A stretch of DNA of 56,527 nt, from NCBI GenBank assembly GCA_017622875.1, contig JAGAQG010000005.1:1-56527 (forward strand). The letters run 5' to 3'. The position numbers were made by a program, and so were the translations under genes. Positions 5,217 to 16,000 of this stretch are shown here, piece after piece; the first letter of the stretch is position 1, and each line of letters begins with the position of its first letter. The notes under the pieces are model-generated. The model saw nothing but the letters and a program-made list of their open reading frames with translations, searched no databases and was not told the DNA's origin. This DNA comes from Lachnospiraceae bacterium. GTDB lineage: Bacteria; Bacillota; Clostridia; Lachnospirales; Lachnospiraceae.

Positions 5217-6090
5217 ATTCTGTTGGTGTACAGCCGTAGATTTTTTTAAAGGATTTGGCAAAATAGCTCATTTCCTGAAAACCGCAGAAGTTTCCGATAT
5301 CTACGATTTTTAAATCTGTAGAGGTAAGAAGAGCAGCGGCTTTGTGAATGCGGAACTGCTTCACATATTGGATTGGTGTATTGCCGATGGTATTGTGAAA
5401 ACAGCGTAAAACTTCACTTTCACTGATCATGGCGCAGTCTGCCAGATTTGCGATAGTAATCTCATCGGAGAAATGTTCTGAGATATACTGCATCATCAAT
5501 TTCATACGTTCTCCATCTCTGAGAGCTTTCGGGGATGGGGAATTTTTTTGTCTGGAGCTGTTGGTGCAGATGACCAAAATTAATTTTGACAGGCTTTCAC
5601 GGACTGCAAATTCATAGCCCATGGTTTCTTTTGCAAAACACTGCCATCCGTATTCCAAAGCATTCAGAACCTCTTTCTGCCATGGAACTTTCTGGTCAAA
5701 ATAGAATCCCTGCAATGCTTTATTTTCTATCAATGGATGCAGATAACGATTCCAGAAAACACTTTCAAAACTGCCCCCGATAAGTGCAGGGTGAAATACA
5801 AAGGAATGGTAGCGGCAGGCTGGCGTATCAGCATGGAACCCGGAATGAAGTATTTCAGAATTGATAAAAAGCCCGTCTCCTTCTTTCAAGAGATATTTCT
5901 CACTTCCTGTGGTAACGACAGAGGCTCCTTCAGCCTGAATGATAAATTCAAATTCCTTATGCCAGTGCCACTCTACGTCTTCCTCATACAGATCGTCATT
6001 GTAGACGGCTGCCGGAAAGGCAGCATTTCCGTGCTCAACTAATTCTAATCCATGTTCGTCAATGTAATTTAGACATTCAGAAACTGCCAT
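5200..6090 (-). CDS. AraC-family transcriptional regulator with cupin sensor domain
   Basis: This 296-residue regulator has an N-terminal cupin-like domain (about residues 25-110, including WHWHKEFEFIIQAEG and GDGLFINSEILHSG) and a C-terminal double helix-turn-helix (about 195-293) ending in FAKSFKKIYGCTPTEYR. The first domain of such proteins usually senses a sugar or related ligand. It is transcribed away from an MFS permease gene with 122 bases between them, so it probably controls that permease. The ligand cannot be deduced. Confidence 0.9.
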   Translation of the reverse strand: MAVSECLNYIDEHGLELVEHGNAAFPAAVYNDDLYEEDVEWHWHKEFEFIIQAEGASVVTTGSEKYLLKEGDGLFINSEILHSGFHADTPACRYHSFVFHPALIGGSFESVFWNRYLHPLIENKALQGFYFDQKVPWQKEVLNALEYGWQCFAKETMGYEFAVRESLSKLILVICTNSSRQKNSPSPKALRDGERMKLMMQYISEHFSDEITIANLADCAMISESEVLRCFHNTIGNTPIQYVKQFRIHKAAALLTSTDLKIVDIGNFCGFQEMSYFAKSFKKIYGCTPTEYRLQG

Positions 6091-6175
6091 AAAATGTTTC
6101 CTCTCTTTTTGGAGATTTTGTCCTATGTTTTGCTTCTATTTTGGACGTATTGTTCTAACTTTGAAAAATATTTGA

Positions 6176-6184
6176 TGATATAAT
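6176..6184 (+). promoter_or_regulatory. Extended -10 promoter of the MFS permease gene
   Basis: TGATATAAT is a full extended -10 element. No strong -35 is found 16-18 bases upstream, which fits a promoter that needs an activator such as the divergent AraC protein. Transcription would start near 6191, about 22 bases before the start codon. Confidence 0.55.
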
Positions 6185-6212
6185 CATATCAATTCAAAGG
6201 AGATTATACAAG

Positions 6213-7373
6213 ATGGTACATTTATTATTAGCATTTATTTACATGGCATTTATCAGCCTTGGACTTCCGGATGCTCTTTTAGGGTCTGCATGGCCGATCA
6301 TGCATCTGGAATTTAATGTTCCGGTATCTTTTGCCGGAATCATATTTGGAATCATTTCTGCCGGAACCATTGTTTCCAGCTTATGCAGTGATTACCTGAC
6401 AAGGAAATATGGTGCAGGAAAAGTAACAGCAGTCAGCGTAGGGATGACAGCAGTGGCATTGCTTGGCTTCTCTTTTAGCGATGCATATTGGCAGCTGCTT
6501 CTCTGGGCAATTCCTTATGGACTTGGTGCAGGAAGTGTAGATGCCTGTTTGAACAATTATGTAGCGATTCATTATGAAAGCCATCATATGAGCTGGCTGC
6601 ATTGCATGTGGGGACTTGGAGCATCTGCAGGACCATACATTATGAGCTATGTTCTGACAAATGGTCAGATTTGGAATATGGGATACCGCTATGTTGGTAT
6701 ACTGCAGGTGGTACTCTCGGCATTACTGTTTTTGTCCCTTCCTCTATGGAAGAAAACTTCAGGTGTAACGAGCAGTACCATGCAGGAAGAGCCGGAAAGC
6801 TTATCACTTCCAGAAATTTTAAAGATTCCGGGGGCAAAAGAAGTCCTTGTGATGTTTTTCTGCTACTGTGCATTGGAGCAGACTGCCGGACTTTGGGCAA
6901 GCAGCTATTTGGTAATGCATAAAGGAATTTTAGAAGAGATTGCAGCACAGTTTGGAAGCCTTTTTTACATTGGTATTACAGTAGGAAGATTTATTAGCGG
7001 ATTTATTACTTTTAAATTAAATGATGACCAGATGATTCGCCTGGGACAGGGGATTATAGGAATCGGTATTTTGACAATGTTCCTGCCGCTTGGAGATATG
7101 GCGGCGTTGGCGGGTCTTGTAATTATTGGCCTTGGATGCGCACCAATTTATCCTTGTGTCATTCATTCTACACCGGATCATTTTGGGGCAGATAAATCTC
7201 AGAGCATTGTAGGAATGCAGATGGCAAGTGCTTATGTGGGAACTCTTTGCATGCCGCCACTGTTTGGCCTCATTGCAAATCATATCAATGTAGCATTGCT
7301 GCCGGTATATCTGTTGGAAATTTTAGTGTTAATGTTTGTAATGCATGAGAGATTATGTAAGGATTCAAAATAG
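6213..7373 (+). CDS. Major facilitator superfamily permease, sugar-type
   Basis: The 386-residue product is almost entirely hydrophobic, consistent with twelve membrane helices. A basic loop LTRKYGAGK lies after helix 2, at the place of the MFS A-motif. The pattern resembles FucP-like sugar permeases of Firmicutes rather than drug exporters, but this is a family impression. The neighbouring divergent AraC gene suggests substrate-induced uptake. The ribosome site AAAGGAG precedes ATG 6213. A tetraloop terminator follows. Confidence 0.85.
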   Translation: MVHLLLAFIYMAFISLGLPDALLGSAWPIMHLEFNVPVSFAGIIFGIISAGTIVSSLCSDYLTRKYGAGKVTAVSVGMTAVALLGFSFSDAYWQLLLWAIPYGLGAGSVDACLNNYVAIHYESHHMSWLHCMWGLGASAGPYIMSYVLTNGQIWNMGYRYVGILQVVLSALLFLSLPLWKKTSGVTSSTMQEEPESLSLPEILKIPGAKEVLVMFFCYCALEQTAGLWASSYLVMHKGILEEIAAQFGSLFYIGITVGRFISGFITFKLNDDQMIRLGQGIIGIGILTMFLPLGDMAALAGLVIIGLGCAPIYPCVIHSTPDHFGADKSQSIVGMQMASAYVGTLCMPPLFGLIANHINVALLPVYLLEILVLMFVMHERLCKDSK

Positions 7374-7388
7374 TGCAGTTAAGAGCAG

Positions 7389-7420
7389 CAGGTTTTATCC
7401 GGAAGGGTAGAACCTGTTTT
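7389..7420 (+). terminator. Terminator after the MFS permease gene
   Basis: A 12-bp stem (7389-7400 with 7405-7416, two G-T pairs) is capped by a GGAA tetraloop and followed by four T residues. GNRA loops give unusually stable hairpins. Confidence 0.85.
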
Positions 7421-7453
7421 ACTATGTAATTTTATATTTTCATAGATTATAGA

Positions 7454-7483
7454 TTGTAAAACCGCCTGCAAATGGAGTATACT
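7454..7483 (+). promoter_or_regulatory. Sigma-A promoter of the azlC operon
   Basis: TTGTAA (7454-7459) and TATACT (7478-7483) are separated by 18 bases. Transcription would start near 7490. No terminator is evident before 13018, so this promoter may serve the whole run azlC to tdk. Confidence 0.6.
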
Positions 7484-7545
7484 ATCCAAATAGGATGAAA
7501 ATGGGAATCCTTCGTGAAAATGTGAAAAGAGGAAGAATCTTACCT

Positions 7546-8253
7546 ATGAAAAAGCAGGAATTTTTAGAGGGAGTCCGTGACGGACTTCCGATTTGTCTTG
7601 GATATTTTTCGGTGTCCATGGCATTTGGTCTGACAGCAGTATTAAGCGGTATTCCAGTCTGGGCGGCAGTTTTAATTTCCTTAACGAACCTGACAAGTGC
7701 AGGGCAGTTTGCCGGAATGAACCTGATTGCAGCTTCTGGAGCACTGGTAGAAATCGGCTTAACGACCCTGATCATTAACATTCGATACTTTTTAATGTCA
7801 ATTTCCGTATCTCAGAAAGTAGAGCGCAAAATGACAATGAAAGAGCGTCTGGCGGTATCCTTTGGTATTACAGACGAAATCTTTGCGGTCTCCATGCAGA
7901 GAGACCATGAACTGACCACAGCCTATATGGCAGGACTTATCCTGACTCCAGTGATTGGATGGACAGGCGGTACACTGGTAGGTGCAGTAGCTACGTCCCT
8001 GATGCCGCCAGTACTGTCAAATGCATTTGGTATTGCACTTTACGGAATGTTTATTGCAATTATCATACCGCCTGCAAGAGAACATAAAAATGTACTTTTT
8101 GCAGTTGTACTTGCCATCGCAGCAAGTGCGGCCTGTAAATATCTTCCGGTGATTAAAAATCTGTCCAGCGGCTGGACAATCATTTTGATTACGGTGGTTG
8201 TCTGCCTGATCGCAGCATGGCTGTTTCCGGTGGAAGAAAGTGAGGGAGAATGA
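7546..8253 (+). CDS. azlC: AzlC-family branched-chain amino acid exporter, large subunit
   Basis: AzlC forms the larger part of a two-component inner-membrane exporter of branched-chain amino acids. The 235-residue product has several hydrophobic segments and the family opening GVRDGLPICLGYFSVSMAFG. An ATG at 7495 would add 17 residues, but it lies almost at the predicted transcription start. ATG 7546 has AGAGGAAG ten bases upstream and gives the usual length. The last base of its stop overlaps the start of azlD. Confidence 0.9.
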   Translation: MKKQEFLEGVRDGLPICLGYFSVSMAFGLTAVLSGIPVWAAVLISLTNLTSAGQFAGMNLIAASGALVEIGLTTLIINIRYFLMSISVSQKVERKMTMKERLAVSFGITDEIFAVSMQRDHELTTAYMAGLILTPVIGWTGGTLVGAVATSLMPPVLSNAFGIALYGMFIAIIIPPAREHKNVLFAVVLAIAASAACKYLPVIKNLSSGWTIILITVVVCLIAAWLFPVEESEGE

Positions 8254-8564
8254 TGAGTACAGGATATATAATTGCGGGAATCGCAGTGATGGCGTTAGTT
8301 ACCTATCTCGTGCGAGTGCTCCCGATGGTAATTTTCAGAAAAAAGATCACGAATGTGAGAGTCAAATCATTTTTATATTATGTGCCATACGCAGTTTTAT
8401 CTGCGATGACTTTCCCGGCAATCTTTTCAAGCACAGGCACTTTGCCGAGTTCGGTTGCAGGGTGTACCACAGCGGTCGTTCTGGCATATTTCAAAAAAGG
8501 ATTATTAACAGTGGCAGTGGGAGCTGCGGCAGCAGTTTTTCTTGTGCAGATGTTAGGATTTTAA
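8253..8564 (+). CDS. azlD: AzlD-family branched-chain amino acid exporter, small subunit
   Basis: This 103-residue protein has about four hydrophobic helices and the AzlD pattern TYLVRVLPMVIFRKKI near the N-terminus. It pairs with AzlC in the membrane. Two ATG codons are adjacent (8250 and 8253). The second has the better five-base spacing from the GAGGGAG site, and its first base is the last base of the azlC stop codon, so the two are translationally coupled. Confidence 0.9.
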   Translation: MSTGYIIAGIAVMALVTYLVRVLPMVIFRKKITNVRVKSFLYYVPYAVLSAMTFPAIFSSTGTLPSSVAGCTTAVVLAYFKKGLLTVAVGAAAAVFLVQMLGF

Positions 8565-8595
8565 AAATTAAAAATATTGAGGGAAGAGAAAGAAG

Positions 8596-9528
8596 ATGAA
8601 ACTTTTATTAGCAATTTTATTATTAATTGTAGGATTTGTCATGCTCATTAAAGGCGCAGACTGGTTCGTAGACGGGACGGCAGGAATCGCCGCAAGATTT
8701 GGAATTCCACAGCTTGTCATCGGACTTACGATTGTAGCTATGGGAACCAGTGCACCGGAAGCAGCGGTAAGTATTACAGCGGCAATGTCCGGCAACGCAG
8801 GAATCACGATTGGAAATATTGTGGGAAGCAATATTTTAAATGTGCTTCTGATTTTAGGTATTACCGCAGCAATCACAACTGTCGCAGTTCAGCATTCCAC
8901 AGTGAAATGGGAAATGCCATTTATGCATATCATTACAATTGTACTTGCAGTACTTGGTTTTACAGGTGGTAAAATCGTTTTATGGGAAGGTATCGTGCTT
9001 TGGGCATTATTCCTTGTGTATCTTGGATACCTTTTCAGAATGGCGAAAAATGGAAATGATGACGAAGAAGAGGGAGAACTGCTTCCGCTCTGGAAACAGC
9101 TTCTGATGCTGGCAGTGGGTATTGTCTGTATTGTGTTAGGAAGTGACCTGACGGTTGATAACGCAACCATTATCGCAGAAACTCTTGGTATGGACGATCG
9201 TCTCATCGGTCTGACCATCGTTGCATTTGGCACTTCATTGCCAGAGCTGGTAACTTCTGTAACAGCAGCCAGAAAAGGAAAAGCAGATATTGCCATTGGA
9301 AATATTGTAGGAAGCAATATCTTTAATATTTTATTTGTTGTAGGTACAACTGCACTGATCACACCGGTAGCCTTTGCAAAAGGATTTTTGATTGACTCTG
9401 CAATCGCACTGGCAGCAGGCCTGATCCTCTGGTTTGGTGTTATGAAAGAGCATAAATTAAAAAGACCGGTTGGTATTATTATGTTGGTGGCTTATGCAGC
9501 ATACTTTGTGTATTTGATGATAGGTTAA
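8596..9528 (+). CDS. Calcium/sodium antiporter, CaCA family (YrbG type)
   Basis: This 310-residue membrane exchanger shows the two inverted alpha repeats of the family. The first, [17 protein letters not shown] followed by [10 protein letters not shown], lies at about residues 42-84. The second, [18 protein letters not shown] followed by [10 protein letters not shown], lies at about 208-250. The Gly-Thr-Ser and Pro-Glu residues line the cation sites. An acidic loop (DDEEEGE, about residue 155) separates the halves. It lies 31 bases after azlD and 12 bases before the glycosyltransferase fusion gene. A decayed relative is found at 2633-2797. Confidence 0.93.
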
Positions 9529-9540
9529 GGGAGAGATTTG

Positions 9541-10872
9541 ATGACTCCAAAGGTTAGTATTATTATTCCGATTTATAACGCAGAGCAGCATTTGCGTCGA
9601 TGCATTGAAAGTGTTTTAAAACAGGACTTTGAAAATTTCGAATTAATATTGGTGGATGACGGAAGCAAGGATTCTTCAGGACTCATCTGTGATGAATATG
9701 CAGAGAAAGATGAAAGAATCCGTGTGATTCACAAACAAAACTCTGGTGTTTCTGACAGCCGAAATCTGGCAATCAAATCAGCGCGGGGAGAATACTTACA
9801 GTTTTTAGACAGTGATGACTGGATTACACCGGATGCCACAGGGCTTTTAGTGCATAGTGCGCAGGAATATGACTGCGATATGGTAATCTCAGATTTCTAT
9901 CGTGTAATTGGAGAGCGTCTCGCGCATAAAGGAGATATTCAGGAGGACGGTGTTCTGACCCGTGAAGAATTTGCACTTCAGATGATGGAAAAGCCGGCAG
10001 ATTTCTATTACGGTGTGCTTTGGAATAAGCTTTATCGAAGAGCTATCATTGAAAAATATGGACTTTCTATGGATAAGGACATTAGCTGGTGTGAAGACTT
10101 TATCTTTAATATGGAGTATATCCGCCATGTGAGAAGTGTATATGCTTTACGTGTGCCGATTTACTATTATGTAAAAACACCAGGCTCCCTTGTTTCTCAG
10201 GGAACCAGCATTTCAAAGACAGTCCGCATGAAGCGTACCGTATTCAAATGTTACAATGAATTCTATAAAGATGTATTTGAGGAAGAGGACTACGAAAAAC
10301 GCCGTCTGCAGGTATACAGATTTCTGATTGATGCTGCAGGAGATGGGGCAGTTGGACCGATGGTATTTCCTGGCAGCATGAGACTTGGGGATGAAAGAGT
10401 GTCAGTCAGTGTCAGTATTACTGAAGGCGCAGGAATTCTTTTTGACACTTACAGAGAAAGCAAACTGCTGGACCGCTATCTGGAAACGGTAGCTTTAAAG
10501 CATGATCTGAATTTTGAAGATGTAAAATTGATCTTTTATTTAAGTCAGACGGATGAAGCCTGTACATTGAAAGAAATATCGTCAGTGACTCATATTAAGC
10601 GTCGTACACTGATGATGTCTATTCAGAAATTGATTGCAAAAGAACTGGTAAAGTTAAAGGAAGCAGTTGATTTGGAGAAAAAGAAATCTGAGAAGTCAGA
10701 CTACAAGATGGAGCTGGAATTGTTAAGCGCATCAGAGCCAATCATTGGAGATCTTCTGATGGCTAAAAATACTTATTTACAGGTGAAATATTCCGGTCTC
10801 AGTGAAGAAGAGATTGAACAATATGAAATGCTCTCGGAAAAAATGCGTGCCAATATAAGAAAGGCACTGTGA
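9541..10872 (+). CDS. Family 2 glycosyltransferase fused to a MarR-like winged-helix domain
   Basis: Residues 1 to about 220 are a GT2 catalytic domain: VSIIIPIYNAEQHLRRCI, LVDDGSKDSSG, SRNLAIKSARGEY and the DxD-like LDSDDW near residue 97. Such enzymes transfer sugars from nucleotide donors to cell-wall or surface polymers. Residues about 300-443 look like a MarR regulator: a helix with LNFEDVKLIFYLSQ, a helix-turn-helix TLKEISSVTHIKRRTLMMSI, and the C-terminal dimerisation helix SGLSEEEIEQYEMLSEKM. Both parts are in one uninterrupted frame. ATG 9541 has AAGGGAGAG six bases upstream. Whether it binds DNA, makes glycans, or both is unknown. Confidence 0.85.
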   Translation: MTPKVSIIIPIYNAEQHLRRCIESVLKQDFENFELILVDDGSKDSSGLICDEYAEKDERIRVIHKQNSGVSDSRNLAIKSARGEYLQFLDSDDWITPDATGLLVHSAQEYDCDMVISDFYRVIGERLAHKGDIQEDGVLTREEFALQMMEKPADFYYGVLWNKLYRRAIIEKYGLSMDKDISWCEDFIFNMEYIRHVRSVYALRVPIYYYVKTPGSLVSQGTSISKTVRMKRTVFKCYNEFYKDVFEEEDYEKRRLQVYRFLIDAAGDGAVGPMVFPGSMRLGDERVSVSVSITEGAGILFDTYRESKLLDRYLETVALKHDLNFEDVKLIFYLSQTDEACTLKEISSVTHIKRRTLMMSIQKLIAKELVKLKEAVDLEKKKSEKSDYKMELELLSASEPIIGDLLMAKNTYLQVKYSGLSEEEIEQYEMLSEKMRANIRKAL

Positions 10873-10893
10873 TATAGAAAGGGGAATTAAATA

Positions 10894-11556
10894 ATGAAAA
10901 ACGAGGTATTAAAGCATGTTGACCATACATTGTTAACTCAGACAGCAACATGGTCAGAAATCAAAATGATTCTCAACGATGCAATGGCATATGGAACAGC
11001 ATCAGCATGTATTCCGCCAAGTTATGTAGCACAGGCAAAAGAATATGTACAGGATAAACTGGCAATCTGTACAGTAATCGGATTTCCGAACGGTTACATG
11101 ACAACAGCTGCAAAAGAATTTGAAACAAAAGATGCAATTGCTAACGGAGCAGACGAAATTGATATGGTAATCAATATCGGATGGCTGAAAGACAAAAAAT
11201 ATGATCTTCTTGAAAATGAAATCCGCACATTGAAAGCAGCATGCGGGGACAAAATCTTAAAGGTCATTATTGAAACATGCCTTTTAACGGATGAAGAAAA
11301 AGTAAAAATGTGCGAGATCGTAACAGCAGCAGGGGCTGATTACATTAAAACATCTACAGGATTTTCCAAAGCAGGTGCAACTTTTGCTGATATTGAACTG
11401 TTTGCCAAAAATATCGGACCAAATGTGAAAATGAAAGCAGCAGGAGGGATTTCCTCTATGGATGATGCAGAAAAATTCTTGGAACTTGGAGCGGACAGAC
11501 TGGGAACAAGCCGTATCATTAAGATTGTAAAAAATGAAGAAGCGACAGGTTACTAA
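10894..11556 (+). CDS. deoC: Deoxyribose-phosphate aldolase
   Basis: DeoC splits 2-deoxyribose 5-phosphate into glyceraldehyde 3-phosphate and acetaldehyde, feeding nucleoside sugar into glycolysis. The 220-residue length is typical of the short class. The Schiff-base lysine is Lys152 in [10 protein letters not shown], and the conserved [12 protein letters not shown] lies at about 85-96. It is followed by udp and tdk, which form a pyrimidine deoxyribonucleoside salvage set. The ribosome site AAGGGG precedes the ATG. Confidence 0.96.
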
Positions 11557-11609
11557 GACTTGGATTTATAGCATAGTTATGGAAAAATGATGATTTATAG
11601 GAGGGCATT

Positions 11610-12407
11610 ATGCGGGAATTAGAAAAGCAATATCATATTCAGTGCGTAGAAGGTGACGTAGGACGTTATTGCTTATTACCTGGAGATCCGGGACGCTGTG
11701 CAGCAATTGCAAAGCATTTTGATGATCCTGTGCTTGTATCTCAGAACCGTGAATACACTGTCTATACAGGGACACTGTTGGGAGAAAAGGTAAGTGTCTG
11801 CTCTACTGGCATTGGCGGACCATCTGCTTCTATTGCGATGGAAGAACTTCACAACATCGGTGCAGATACATTTATCCGTGTAGGTACCTGTGGCGGTATC
11901 GACCTTGACGTTCAGTCTGGTGATGTAGTAATCGCTTCTGGAGCAATCCGTTTTGAACATACCAGTATGGAATATGCTCCAATCGAATATCCTGCAGTAG
12001 CAAATTTTGAAGTTTTATCAGCACTTGTAGAAGCGGCTGAAAAGCTTGGCAAAAAGTATCATGTAGGTGTTGTCCAGTGTAAAGATGCTTTCTATGGACA
12101 GCATTCTCCACACAAAATGCCGGTTTCCTATGAACTTCTTCAAAAATGGGAAGCGTGGAAACGCCTTGGAGTAAAGGCAAGTGAAATGGAATCAGCAGCG
12201 TTATTTGTAGTGGCAGATGCATTAAAATGCCGCTGCGGTTCTAACTTCCATGTAGTATGGAACCAGGAAAGAGAAGCGGCTGGTTTAGATCAGAACATGA
12301 GCGAAGATACATCACAGGCGATTATCGTAGGGATTGAAGCGCTGAAAATTTTGATTGAAAAAGACAGAGCAAAAGAAGTATCTGTAGGGAAGGAAAGAAA
12401 CGAATAG
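11610..12407 (+). CDS. udp: Uridine phosphorylase (nucleoside phosphorylase I family)
   Basis: This 265-residue cytosolic enzyme cleaves uridine, and often deoxyuridine or thymidine, with phosphate to base and (deoxy)ribose 1-phosphate. It carries the phosphate-binding LLPGDPGR (about 22-29), [13 protein letters not shown]-like residues (IRVGTCGGI near 89), and the substrate motif [11 protein letters not shown] near 188. Its place between deoC and tdk supports pyrimidine deoxynucleoside salvage. Related purine enzymes share the fold, but the DPGR and EMESAALF motifs favour the uridine type. GGAGGG precedes the ATG. Confidence 0.9.
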
Positions 12408-12417
12408 GAACACAGAT

Positions 12418-12987
12418 ATGGCAAAACTTTATTTTTACTATGGTGCAATGGGCAGTTCGAAAACAGCCAATGCATTGATGACACGATTTAACTATGAAGA
12501 AGTAGGACAGAAGGCATTGCTTTGCAAACCGGCAATCGATACCAGAGATGGCGTAAAGGTCGTGCATTCCAGAATTGGTCTGCAGGAAGAGTGCATTTTA
12601 TTAGAAGAACTAACAAAATATACTGAAGAACAGATTAAGGAATATGATTGTATCATCGTTGATGAAGTGCAGTTTGCAACAGGAGAACAGATTGATTTCC
12701 TATCTGATATTGTAGATTTTATGGATGTACCCGTCGTATGTTATGGACTTCGTGCGGATTTTCAAAATCGTCTGTTTCCGGGAAGTGAGCGTCTTGTGGC
12801 AATCGCAGACTGTATTCAGGAATTGAAGACTGTTTGCTGGTGTGGAAGAAAAGCCACCTGCAATGCACGTTATAATGAAAACGGAATCGTAAGAGTTGGT
12901 GCGCAGGTCATGTTGGGTGCGAACGACAGCTATAAGGCTCTTTGCAGAAAACATTATAAATTAGGAAAACTGACACCAGAAGATTAA
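12418..12987 (+). CDS. tdk: Thymidine kinase
   Basis: Tdk phosphorylates thymidine with ATP. The 189-residue product has the Walker A motif GAMGSSKT (residues 9-16), the catalytic DEVQF near residue 82, and the lasso-domain residues VGAQVMLGANDSY. Four zinc ligands come from WCGRKATC and the C-terminal CRKHY. It is the last gene of the azlC-tdk run and is followed by a strong terminator. Confidence 0.96.
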   Translation: MAKLYFYYGAMGSSKTANALMTRFNYEEVGQKALLCKPAIDTRDGVKVVHSRIGLQEECILLEELTKYTEEQIKEYDCIIVDEVQFATGEQIDFLSDIVDFMDVPVVCYGLRADFQNRLFPGSERLVAIADCIQELKTVCWCGRKATCNARYNENGIVRVGAQVMLGANDSYKALCRKHYKLGKLTPED

Positions 12988-13017
12988 CTGCATGTATTAT
13001 ACAAGTAAAAAATATCA

Positions 13018-13048
13018 GCCCGCCTTGTTTCCAAGGCGGGCCGTTTTT
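13018..13048. terminator. Bidirectional terminator between tdk and carB
   Basis: A perfect 10-bp GC-rich stem (13018-13027 with 13032-13041) closes a TTTC loop. Five T residues follow on the plus strand, and six A residues upstream give a T-run for the minus strand. It therefore ends both tdk and carB. Confidence 0.92.
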
Positions 13049-13059
13049 GTTTCAATGAT

Positions 13060-16000
13060 TTATTTGTCGTGGATTTCGCTGTGTAATTCCTGTAATGATT
13101 TTACTTCGCTGCTTCCATGAGCTTTGATACATTTGATGCCTTCAGCAGTAGCTTTTGCAGCTGCCATAGTAGTCATGTAAGGGATTCTTCCCTTGATTGC
13201 TGCTTTACGTAAGTAGCTGTCGTCAGAAACACTTTCTTTTCCTACAGGAGAGTTGATGATTAAATCAACTTTGCCGTTTGTGATGATATCCAGTGTATTT
13301 GGACGGCCTTCAGAAAGTTTTTTGATCTTTTCAGCTGGAATTCCTTCAGCAACGATTGTATCGTAAGTAGAACCTGTAGCAATGATCTTAAATCCTGCTT
13401 CGTGGAAGCTCTTAGCTACTTCTGGAAGTTCTGCTTTATCTTTTCTGTTTACGGAAATCAGTACAGTTCCTTCTAATGGAAGTTTGGACTGTGTAGCTTC
13501 CTGAGCTTTGAAGAATGCTTCACCGTAAGATTTAGATAAACCTAAAACTTCACCTGTAGAACGCATTTCCGGTCCTAAGATCGGGTCTACTTCCTGGAAC
13601 ATGTTGAATGGGAAGACAGCTTCCTTTACACCGTAGTTTGGAATTACCTGTTCTTTTAATTCAGGTACTGGTGAAGGTTTTCCTGTCAACTCGGAAGTAA
13701 TGATTTCTGTAGCAAGCGGTACCATGCGGATGTTACATACCTTAGATACCAATGGTACTGTACGGGATGCTCTTGGGTTTGCTTCCAGTACATATACTTT
13801 ACCGTTTTCGATTGCGTACTGCATGTTCATAAGACCTTTGACGTGCATTTCTTCAGCAATCTTACGAGTATATTCTTTAATTGTCTTAACGTTTTCTTCT
13901 GAAATGTGTACAGATGGAAGGATACAAGCGGAGTCACCTGAGTGAACACCTGCAAGTTCGATGTGTTCCATAACAGCTGGTACAAATGCATGTGTACCAT
14001 CACTGATTGCATCTGCTTCACATTCTAATGCGTGATTTAAGAAGCGGTCGATGAGGATAGGTCTGTCTGGTGTTACACCTACAGCAGCATTCATGTACTG
14101 TGTCAGAGATTCTTCATCATATACAACTTCCATACCACGTCCACCGAGAACGTAGGAAGGACGAACCATAACTGGGAAACCGATCTTGTGAGCGATTTCT
14201 AATGCTTCTTCAACGTTAACAGCCATTCCTGATTCCGGCATTGGGATTTCTAACTTGTCCATCATTTCACGGAAAAGGTCACGGTCTTCTGCCAGGTCGA
14301 TAACTGCAGGAGAAGTACCTAAGATCTTTACGCCGTTCTTTTCAAGATCAGCAGCCAGGTTCAGAGGAGTCTGTCCACCGAACTGAGCGATAACACCAAC
14401 TGGTTTTTCTTTCTTGTAGATGCTAAGAACATCTTCCAGTGTTAATGGTTCAAAATATAATTTATCGGATGTATCGTAATCTGTAGAAACTGTTTCAGGG
14501 TTACAGTTTACGATGATTGTTTCAAATCCGAGTTTCTTTAATGCTAATGAAGCATGTACGCAGCAGTAGTCGAATTCGATACCCTGACCAATACGGTTTG
14601 GACCGCCGCCTAAGATCATAACCTTTGGCTTATCTTCTGAAACAGGGTTCTTGTCTTCTGCATTATAGGTTGAGTAGTAGTAAGCGCTGTCCTGTGTACC
14701 GCTTACGTGTACGCCTTCCCATGCTTCTTCCACACCCAGTTCAATACGTTTGTTACGGATATCTTCTTCTGGGATTTCAAGGATCTGGCTCAAATATTTA
14801 TCAGAGAAACCATTTTTCTTAGCAGAGATCAATGCTTCATCTGTTGGAAGGCTTCCTTTGAATTTCATTAAAGCTTCTTCTTCTTCAACGAGTTCTCTCA
14901 TCTGATCAATAAAGTAATGTTTTACTTTTGTCAGTTCAAAGATTTCATCGCTTGTAGCACCCTTACGGATTGCTTCATACATAATGAAGTGACGGTCGCT
15001 GGATGGTGTGATGAGCTTCTTTAAAAGCTGTTCTTTTGTCATGGAATCGTAATTCTTTGCATGACCAAGACCATAACGTCCTGTTTCCAGGCTTCGGATT
15101 GCTTTCTGGAACGCTTCTTTATAAGTTTTACCGATACTCATAACTTCACCTACGGCTCTCATCTGAGTACCAAGCTTATCTTCAACGCCTTTGAATTTTT
15201 CAAATGCCCAACGTGCAAACTTGATTACAACGTAATCTCCGTCTGGAACATATTTATCTAATGTACCATATTTACCGCATTCGATGTCCTTTAATGTAAG
15301 ACCTGCAGCGAGCATTGCAGATACTAAAGCGATTGGGAAACCAGTAGCTTTAGAAGCGAGTGCAGATGAACGGGATGTACGTGGGTTAATTTCGATAACG
15401 ATAACACGGTCAGATACCGGATCATGAGCGAACTGTACGTTTGTACCACCGATAACGCCTACTTTATCAACAATCTTGAATGCCTGTTCTTTTAAACGAT
15501 CCTGGCATTCCTGAGAAATTGTTAACATTGGTGCGGAACAGAAGGAATCTCCTGTGTGGACGCCCAATGGGTCGATGTTTTCGATGAAACATACTGTGAT
15601 CATATTGCCTTCACAGTCACGTACAACTTCTACTTCAAGTTCTTCCCAGCCTAAGATGGATTCTTCAACGAGAACCTGTCCTACTAAGCTGGCCTGAAGA
15701 CCACGTGCGCAGACTGTTTTTAATTCTTCTTTATTATATACAAGACCGCCGCCTTCGCCGCCCATTGTATAAGCTGGACGAAGTACAACCGGGTAGTTTA
15801 ACTTGTCAGCGATTGCAAGTGCTTCATCAACTGAGTAAGCAACTTCACTTCGAGCCATTTCGATTCCAAGTTCATTCATTGTTTTCTTGAATTCGATACG
15901 GTCTTCACCACGTTCAATAGCATCTACCTGAACACCGATTACTTTCACATTGTATTTATCTAAAATACCTGCTTTATATAATTCAGAGCTTAAGTTTAAT

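Follow-up and report, generated by a model that had tools for sequence, protein, structure and literature searches.

The window (the whole stretch of 56,527 nucleotides analysed here, from a contig of a Lachnospiraceae bacterium) contains on its plus strand a gene in which a GT2 glycosyltransferase is joined to a region of MarR fold. According to the list of open reading frames and the translation, a frame of 443 amino acids runs open from an ATG at 9541 to a stop at 10870-10872; a TTG at 9538 is a possible alternative start, the ATG being the more likely one. The ORF list holds no overlapping frame of at least 80 amino acids within 9541-10872, and the one minus-strand frame translated across the gene is broken by many stops. 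The fusion is genuine: the single frame linking a GT2 domain to a MarR-type region, as claimed in the initial annotation, is borne out by the ORF, by a GT2 profile and by a MarR profile and model, and the two sequence motifs quoted there, a helix-turn-helix and a C-terminal dimer helix, are present in the translation. An assembly artefact joining two genes, in favour of which no point was found, has a negligible probability and was ruled out, as 27 of 299 independent genomes of the same family, its own included, carry the full-length fusion. A plasmid search returned 1233 records with a match, none of them covering 80% of the query. The features of the locus are as follows:

9541..10872, plus strand: GT2-MarR-fold fusion gene, 443 amino acids plus stop (ORF, translation, Pfam, AlphaFold)
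9541..10215, plus strand: GT2 catalytic domain, residues 1-225, boundary approximate (PF00535; Foldseek matches)
9808..9819, plus strand: D90-x-D92-D93, DxD-type nucleotide-sugar/metal motif (three Asp invariant in 58/58 aligned fusions)
10087..10098, plus strand: W183-C184-E185-D186, ED catalytic-base motif (invariant in 58/58)
10216..10434, plus strand: linker region, residues 226-298, partly helical (AlphaFold model)
10435..10866, plus strand: predicted MarR-fold domain, residues 299-442 (AlphaFold and family profile; Pfam sub-threshold)
10600..10638, plus strand: predicted position of recognition helix a4, residues 354-366 (AlphaFold model)
10639..10725, plus strand: wing region, residues 367-395, without the MarR D-x-R motif (translation, motif counts)

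The two alignments behind these counts (A1 and A2) have 58 rows each, the window protein and 57 loci drawn from L005-L083, with no loci from the same-family genome search; they omit near-copies or close rows (L020, L028, L029, L031, L032, L034, L046, L061, L063, L077), proteins extended by a long additional C-terminal tail (L051, L054, L058), the tail-less L073-L076 and L079, and fragments or distant matches (L080-L083). The Pfam family PF00535 matches the window protein at residues 6-174 (E 2.6e-40, 138.5 bits against a curated cut-off of 23.3) and is found in all 58 relatives at E <= 0.01, in agreement with the GT2 domain originally placed up to about residue 220. Eleven positions are identical in 58/58 aligned fusions (D40, D90, D92, D93, W161, N162, K163, W183, C184, E185 and D186), including those of the DxD motif, which serves in nucleotide-sugar and metal binding in GT-A enzymes, and of the ED motif, the catalytic base of GT2 enzymes. 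This invariance of key catalytic residues suggests that the enzyme half is probably an active GT2 glycosyltransferase. When the full model was compared with Foldseek, the best 50 of 1739 matches were all glycosyltransferase structures, 3bcv, TarP, TarS and RmlT among them, which share with the window protein the catalytic domain and the DxD and ED motifs; to our knowledge, none of these four structures bears a MarR-fold tail. The matches to TarP, TarS and RmlT reflect the GT domain, as indicated by rmsd values of about 17-18 over long alignments. The 25 NCBIfam families listed for the window protein, out of 34, all scored below their own cut-offs, and no family covering both halves was present among the Pfam and NCBIfam families listed.

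The C-terminal half is, on profile and model evidence, a complete MarR fold. Single-sequence Pfam evidence is sub-threshold: MarR_2 gave 21.3 bits with the whole protein, 23.2 with the C-terminal piece and 25.1 in another run, against a gathering cut-off of 27, and it was found in 25 of the 58 relatives at E <= 0.01 (best 7.2e-9), with other winged-helix models matching fewer. The 58-row C-terminal profile (A2) matched 77 distinct PDB sequences at E <= 0.01, the best being 2fbh (E 5.7e-13, profile positions 15-144 of 147), a MarR/SlyA regulator; among the best 60 of these 77, 8vd6 ('CAP repeat') is the one entry whose name is not that of a regulator or a MarR-type protein. The AlphaFold model of the window protein built on the 58-row alignment (pLDDT 86.1, pTM 0.80) shows a full MarR fold at residues 299-442, with predicted helices in MarR order (a1 299-320, a2 325-334, a3 343-350, a4 354-366), followed by wing strands at 370-376 and 389-394 and by helices a5 (396-416) and a6 (422-442), so that all the helices and the two wing strands of MarR/SlyA regulators (2fbh, 3q5f and FabT-like proteins) have a counterpart. 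As the Foldseek matches listed were all glycosyltransferases, the MarR assignment rests on this topology together with the PDB profile match; when the C-terminal half was predicted on its own from the single sequence, the model was poor (pLDDT 51.8). Both a MarR match and a winged-helix fold were thus found for the region that had been proposed as MarR-type at about residues 300-443.

A scan of genome contigs yielded 79 loci. Of 299 genomes of the same family (Lachnospiraceae, to judge by named relatives), 41 hold a member of this GT family at E <= 1e-70; the MarR part is present in 27 of the 41, with 26 alignments reaching at least profile position 433 and with G193, whose full length was shown separately. 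A class-level sample of 391 genomes gave six with a member at E <= 1e-80, of which the two full-length ones belong to the window's family. The initial annotation had proposed a survey of relatives for the same fusion, and 93 of 117 distinct GT relatives carry the MarR tail, as detected with an HMM built from A2, whose own rows match by construction; this set comprises 141 sequences minus 24 with identical first 275 residues, and leaves out L001, L003, L004, L080-L084 and L090-L095. In a tree of the 117 GT domains, made with a quick method and SH-aLRT support only, all 93 fused rows and one tail-less row form a single clade of 94 (SH-aLRT 100), with forks among the tail-less clades not resolved. 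The fused clade is mostly made of Lachnospiraceae, and nested inside it are Actinomycetota (Atopobiaceae, Coriobacteriaceae, Bifidobacteriaceae), Erysipelotrichaceae, as well as MAGs that carry the label Oscillospiraceae and a single record under the name Fusobacterium naviforme, from which we infer horizontal transfer of the fusion gene. The sole tail-less row within the clade, L119 (4933-5835), has a frame that stops after 300 codons, and the quick tree would imply one gain and one loss of the tail. Sequence change has been faster in the tail than in the GT part, as in L005, where 182 of 225 residues are identical in the GT part and 70 of 130 in the tail.

Outside the fused clade, members of the uracil-DNA-glycosylase (UDG) superfamily are linked, either by fusion or by adjacency, to two clades of the same GT subfamily that lack the tail. 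L115 (4986-6368) and L117 (4950-6539) encode a GT2 with a C-terminal DNA-deoxyinosine glycosylase, not a MarR tail (TIGR04274, 137.5 and 125.5 bits, cut-off 80; PF03167 also above its cut-off), and L131 (1-1206, minus strand) holds at a contig end the start of the same fusion, with 16.6 bits, below the cut-off, and 88% identity to L115 over 41 residues. In three other loci the tail-less GT has a UDG-superfamily gene upstream of it in divergent orientation (L074 494-1063, L075 7060-7635, L076 7122-7691; 116-119 bits). A tblastn search with both UDG types in 116 sequences (the window and the GT loci) matched only these six loci, with no UDG-superfamily gene in the available flanks of the MarR-fused ones. 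In the genome of the window a deoxyinosine glycosylase is encoded on its own, on a different contig, and L116 (4491-5879) is a GT2 of the same subfamily with an N-terminal GNAT acetyltransferase domain. That this GT2 subfamily acts on nucleic acids or in their immediate vicinity, an idea drawn from the MarR clade together with the deoxyinosine-glycosylase-fused and UDG-adjacent clades, seems to us highly improbable; if true, ordinary bacteria would have a class of glycosyltransferases targeted to DNA, or one that modifies damaged or unusual bases, or their nucleosides, with sugars.

With regard to the genomic context, the setting first described for the gene (azlCD, an ion exchanger and nucleoside salvage genes, with no glycan cluster) is correct as far as profile searches went, which confirmed AzlC, a Na/Ca exchanger, DeoC and a nucleoside phosphorylase; no glycan cluster was seen among the neighbours. 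Nine flanking proteins of the window (araC, MFS, azlC, azlD, exchanger, deoC, udp, tdk and carB, some of these names being presumptive) were compared with the ORFs of L001-L095, many of which have short flanks. Outside its own genome, 10 loci showed a single match each, and no homologues of azlC, azlD or the exchanger were found in the other loci. A conserved operon was rejected, since the window's flanks are not common to the compared loci. The region 7400-7545, suggested as an operator in the initial annotation, contains two imperfect inverted repeats of 12-13 nt, a raw count with no chance level; given the lack of azlC, azlD or exchanger homologues in the other compared loci, nothing ties this region to the fusion protein. 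Upstream alignments of six groups revealed no convincing shared palindrome when inspected by eye, without a statistic. The upstream alignment of the Olsenella group shows a conserved promoter-like block, and a promoter scan of 6000-13100 gave 21 candidates against 19.2 expected in shuffles, too close to be informative.

In a survey of neighbours around 112 GT loci, which include tail-less loci and some repeats of one contig, the commonest close neighbour was a GH5 gene, found next or next but one in 11 loci (L037, L042, L045, L051, L058, L060-L063, L066, L067), divergent in four Bifidobacterium loci, and with an exo-beta-1,3-glucanase as its nearest solved structure (E 5.3e-106). A GH3 beta-glucosidase-type gene lies directly downstream in six of the 112 (L043, L044, L046, L049, L077, L122). 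In six loci of Olsenella/Tractidigestivibacter type (L027, L029, L031, L032, L034, L036) a divergent gene lies 130-139 nt upstream, and its L031 member, the one that was profile-searched, encodes a polysaccharide deacetylase carrying a surface Ig-like domain. In five loci the gene is flanked by those for a CxxCxxCC protein and a D-Ala-D-Ala carboxypeptidase, and in four, of which two represent one contig, a PfkB kinase lies downstream. Neither the 112 loci nor the flanks of L001-L095 revealed a neighbourhood common to the whole fusion family. The neighbour links are clade-local, several are glycan-related, and they do not fix a pathway; the GH5 and GH3 genes are a hint of beta-glucoside metabolism in some relatives.

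The tail of the fusions, joined as it is to an enzyme, differs from MarR/SlyA regulators in the elements that read DNA. The D-x-R motif of the wing is absent from the window protein and occurs in 5 of the 58 fusions, rows that are mutually non-independent, compared with 31/31 in a first group of standalone MarR proteins, which we take to be FabT-like, and 30/30 in a second one, seeds included; these controls come from related genomes and were picked by MarR_2 score or by likeness to seeds so chosen, a selection biased towards canonical wings. Another count of the motif gave 2/58 versus 26/30 with unequal search windows, and a looser wing motif 12/58 versus 29/30. The ratio of a4 to a1 identity in three identity bands was 0.89, 0.64 and 0.83 for the fusions, against 3.19, 1.39 and 1.20 for the FabT-like group and 2.48, 2.16 and 1.63 for the second group, with as few as 7 and 12 pairs in a control band. 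In the fusions, conservation is lower in the recognition helix and the wing than in helices 1-2, and the standalone controls show the opposite pattern. Some figures count against a repurposing of the domain: the mean net charge of the recognition helix is +1.45 in fusions and +1.33 in standalone proteins, and in the 21 fused pairs closest to each other (70-95% identity) no element is kept better than the HTH helix a3, at 0.98, with a4 at 0.80. Lys and Arg residues in this helix are fewer in the fusions (1.97 versus 2.6), the wing is more positively charged (+2.34 versus +1.83) and longer (mean 33.1 versus 21.0 residues), and such a basic helix and wing would be compatible with DNA or another polyanion. 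In several Lachnospiraceae (L014-L020, L025, L041, L048) a Lys/Glu-rich insert of tens of residues enlarges the wing. Divergence of a DNA-reading helix may also come from operators changing between lineages. With D-x-R missing in 53/58 fusions and present in 61/61 controls, and with conservation moved from a4 and the wing to a1-a2, canonical DNA reading by the tail is not supported by the sequences, and neither is the dual role at first attributed to the protein, that of an enzyme also binding DNA.

A precedent for a glycosyltransferase with a regulatory part is Listeria GmaR, which PMC9638930 and PMC3150276 describe as a glycosyltransferase and antirepressor whose C-terminal part controls transcription. 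GmaR is like the fusion in its N-terminal GT domain, and the window protein matches it at E 9.6e-7. According to these papers, GmaR acts on the repressor MogR, which it binds by means of its TPR, linker and antirepressor domains, all of them helical and not of MarR fold, whereas the window protein lacks a GmaR-type TPR and all-helical antirepressor part and ends, in the AlphaFold model, in a winged helix with two wing strands. GmaR shows that one polypeptide can combine a GT with a role in transcription, though by another mechanism. Among the matches listed in the open-licence literature, no paper on a GT2-MarR fusion was found.

The GmaR precedent speaks for a true two-function protein, whose MarR domain would bind an operator, either its own or that of glycan genes, while the GT domain would change this binding through its nucleotide-sugar or product, so that transfer and transcription are coupled. 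The full MarR fold of the model, the basic recognition helix and wing, the good conservation of a3 among close relatives, and the GH5 and GH3 genes as possible targets point the same way; however, the missing wing motif, the poorly conserved recognition surface, the lack of a shared palindrome recognised by eye upstream in the six groups and of a neighbourhood common to the whole family make such coupling rather unlikely, if still worth serious consideration. The basic and longer wing, with its Lys/Glu-rich inserts in several lineages, could otherwise grip a polyanionic acceptor, either a teichoic-acid-like poly(ribitol/glycerol phosphate) or an anionic membrane, which resembles the DNA backbone and to which the wing would bring the enzyme. 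This agrees with the many chains of TarP, TarS and RmlT among the 50 Foldseek matches listed, enzymes that presumably act on wall teichoic acid, but those matches reflect the GT domain, and no teichoic-acid gene was present among those window neighbours that were identified; we consider a role of this kind unlikely. Finally, the tail might be a passive relic, with little function, left behind when read-through joined the GT gene to a marR gene downstream of it. Its fast evolution, the other tails or none of the wider GT family, and the tail-less L119 inside the fused clade would fit with a relic, but the retention of the tail by all rows but one (93/94) in a clade that spans two phyla, with a1-a2 conserved, makes it improbable.

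The reading we favour, to which we would give about an even chance, is that the MarR fold has been repurposed as a putative dimerising or ligand-sensing scaffold for the enzyme. A GT2 gene would have gained a MarR-type winged helix once, within the Lachnospiraceae part of the GT family, and the domain would have been kept for work other than canonical DNA reading, presumably with no specific binding to DNA. In MarR proteins the dimer module is built from helices a1, a5 and a6, and for this reason the fold would most likely hold two catalytic domains together as a dimer. In addition, a small ligand may be sensed near a1-a2, which would set the activity of the enzyme.

These results document a widespread architecture that combines an enzyme with a MarR fold. 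If its repurposing is true, a transcription-factor fold would have been turned into an enzyme module, and the signature of this change, a rare wing motif together with an inverted pattern of conservation, would be usable on other MarR-enzyme fusions.
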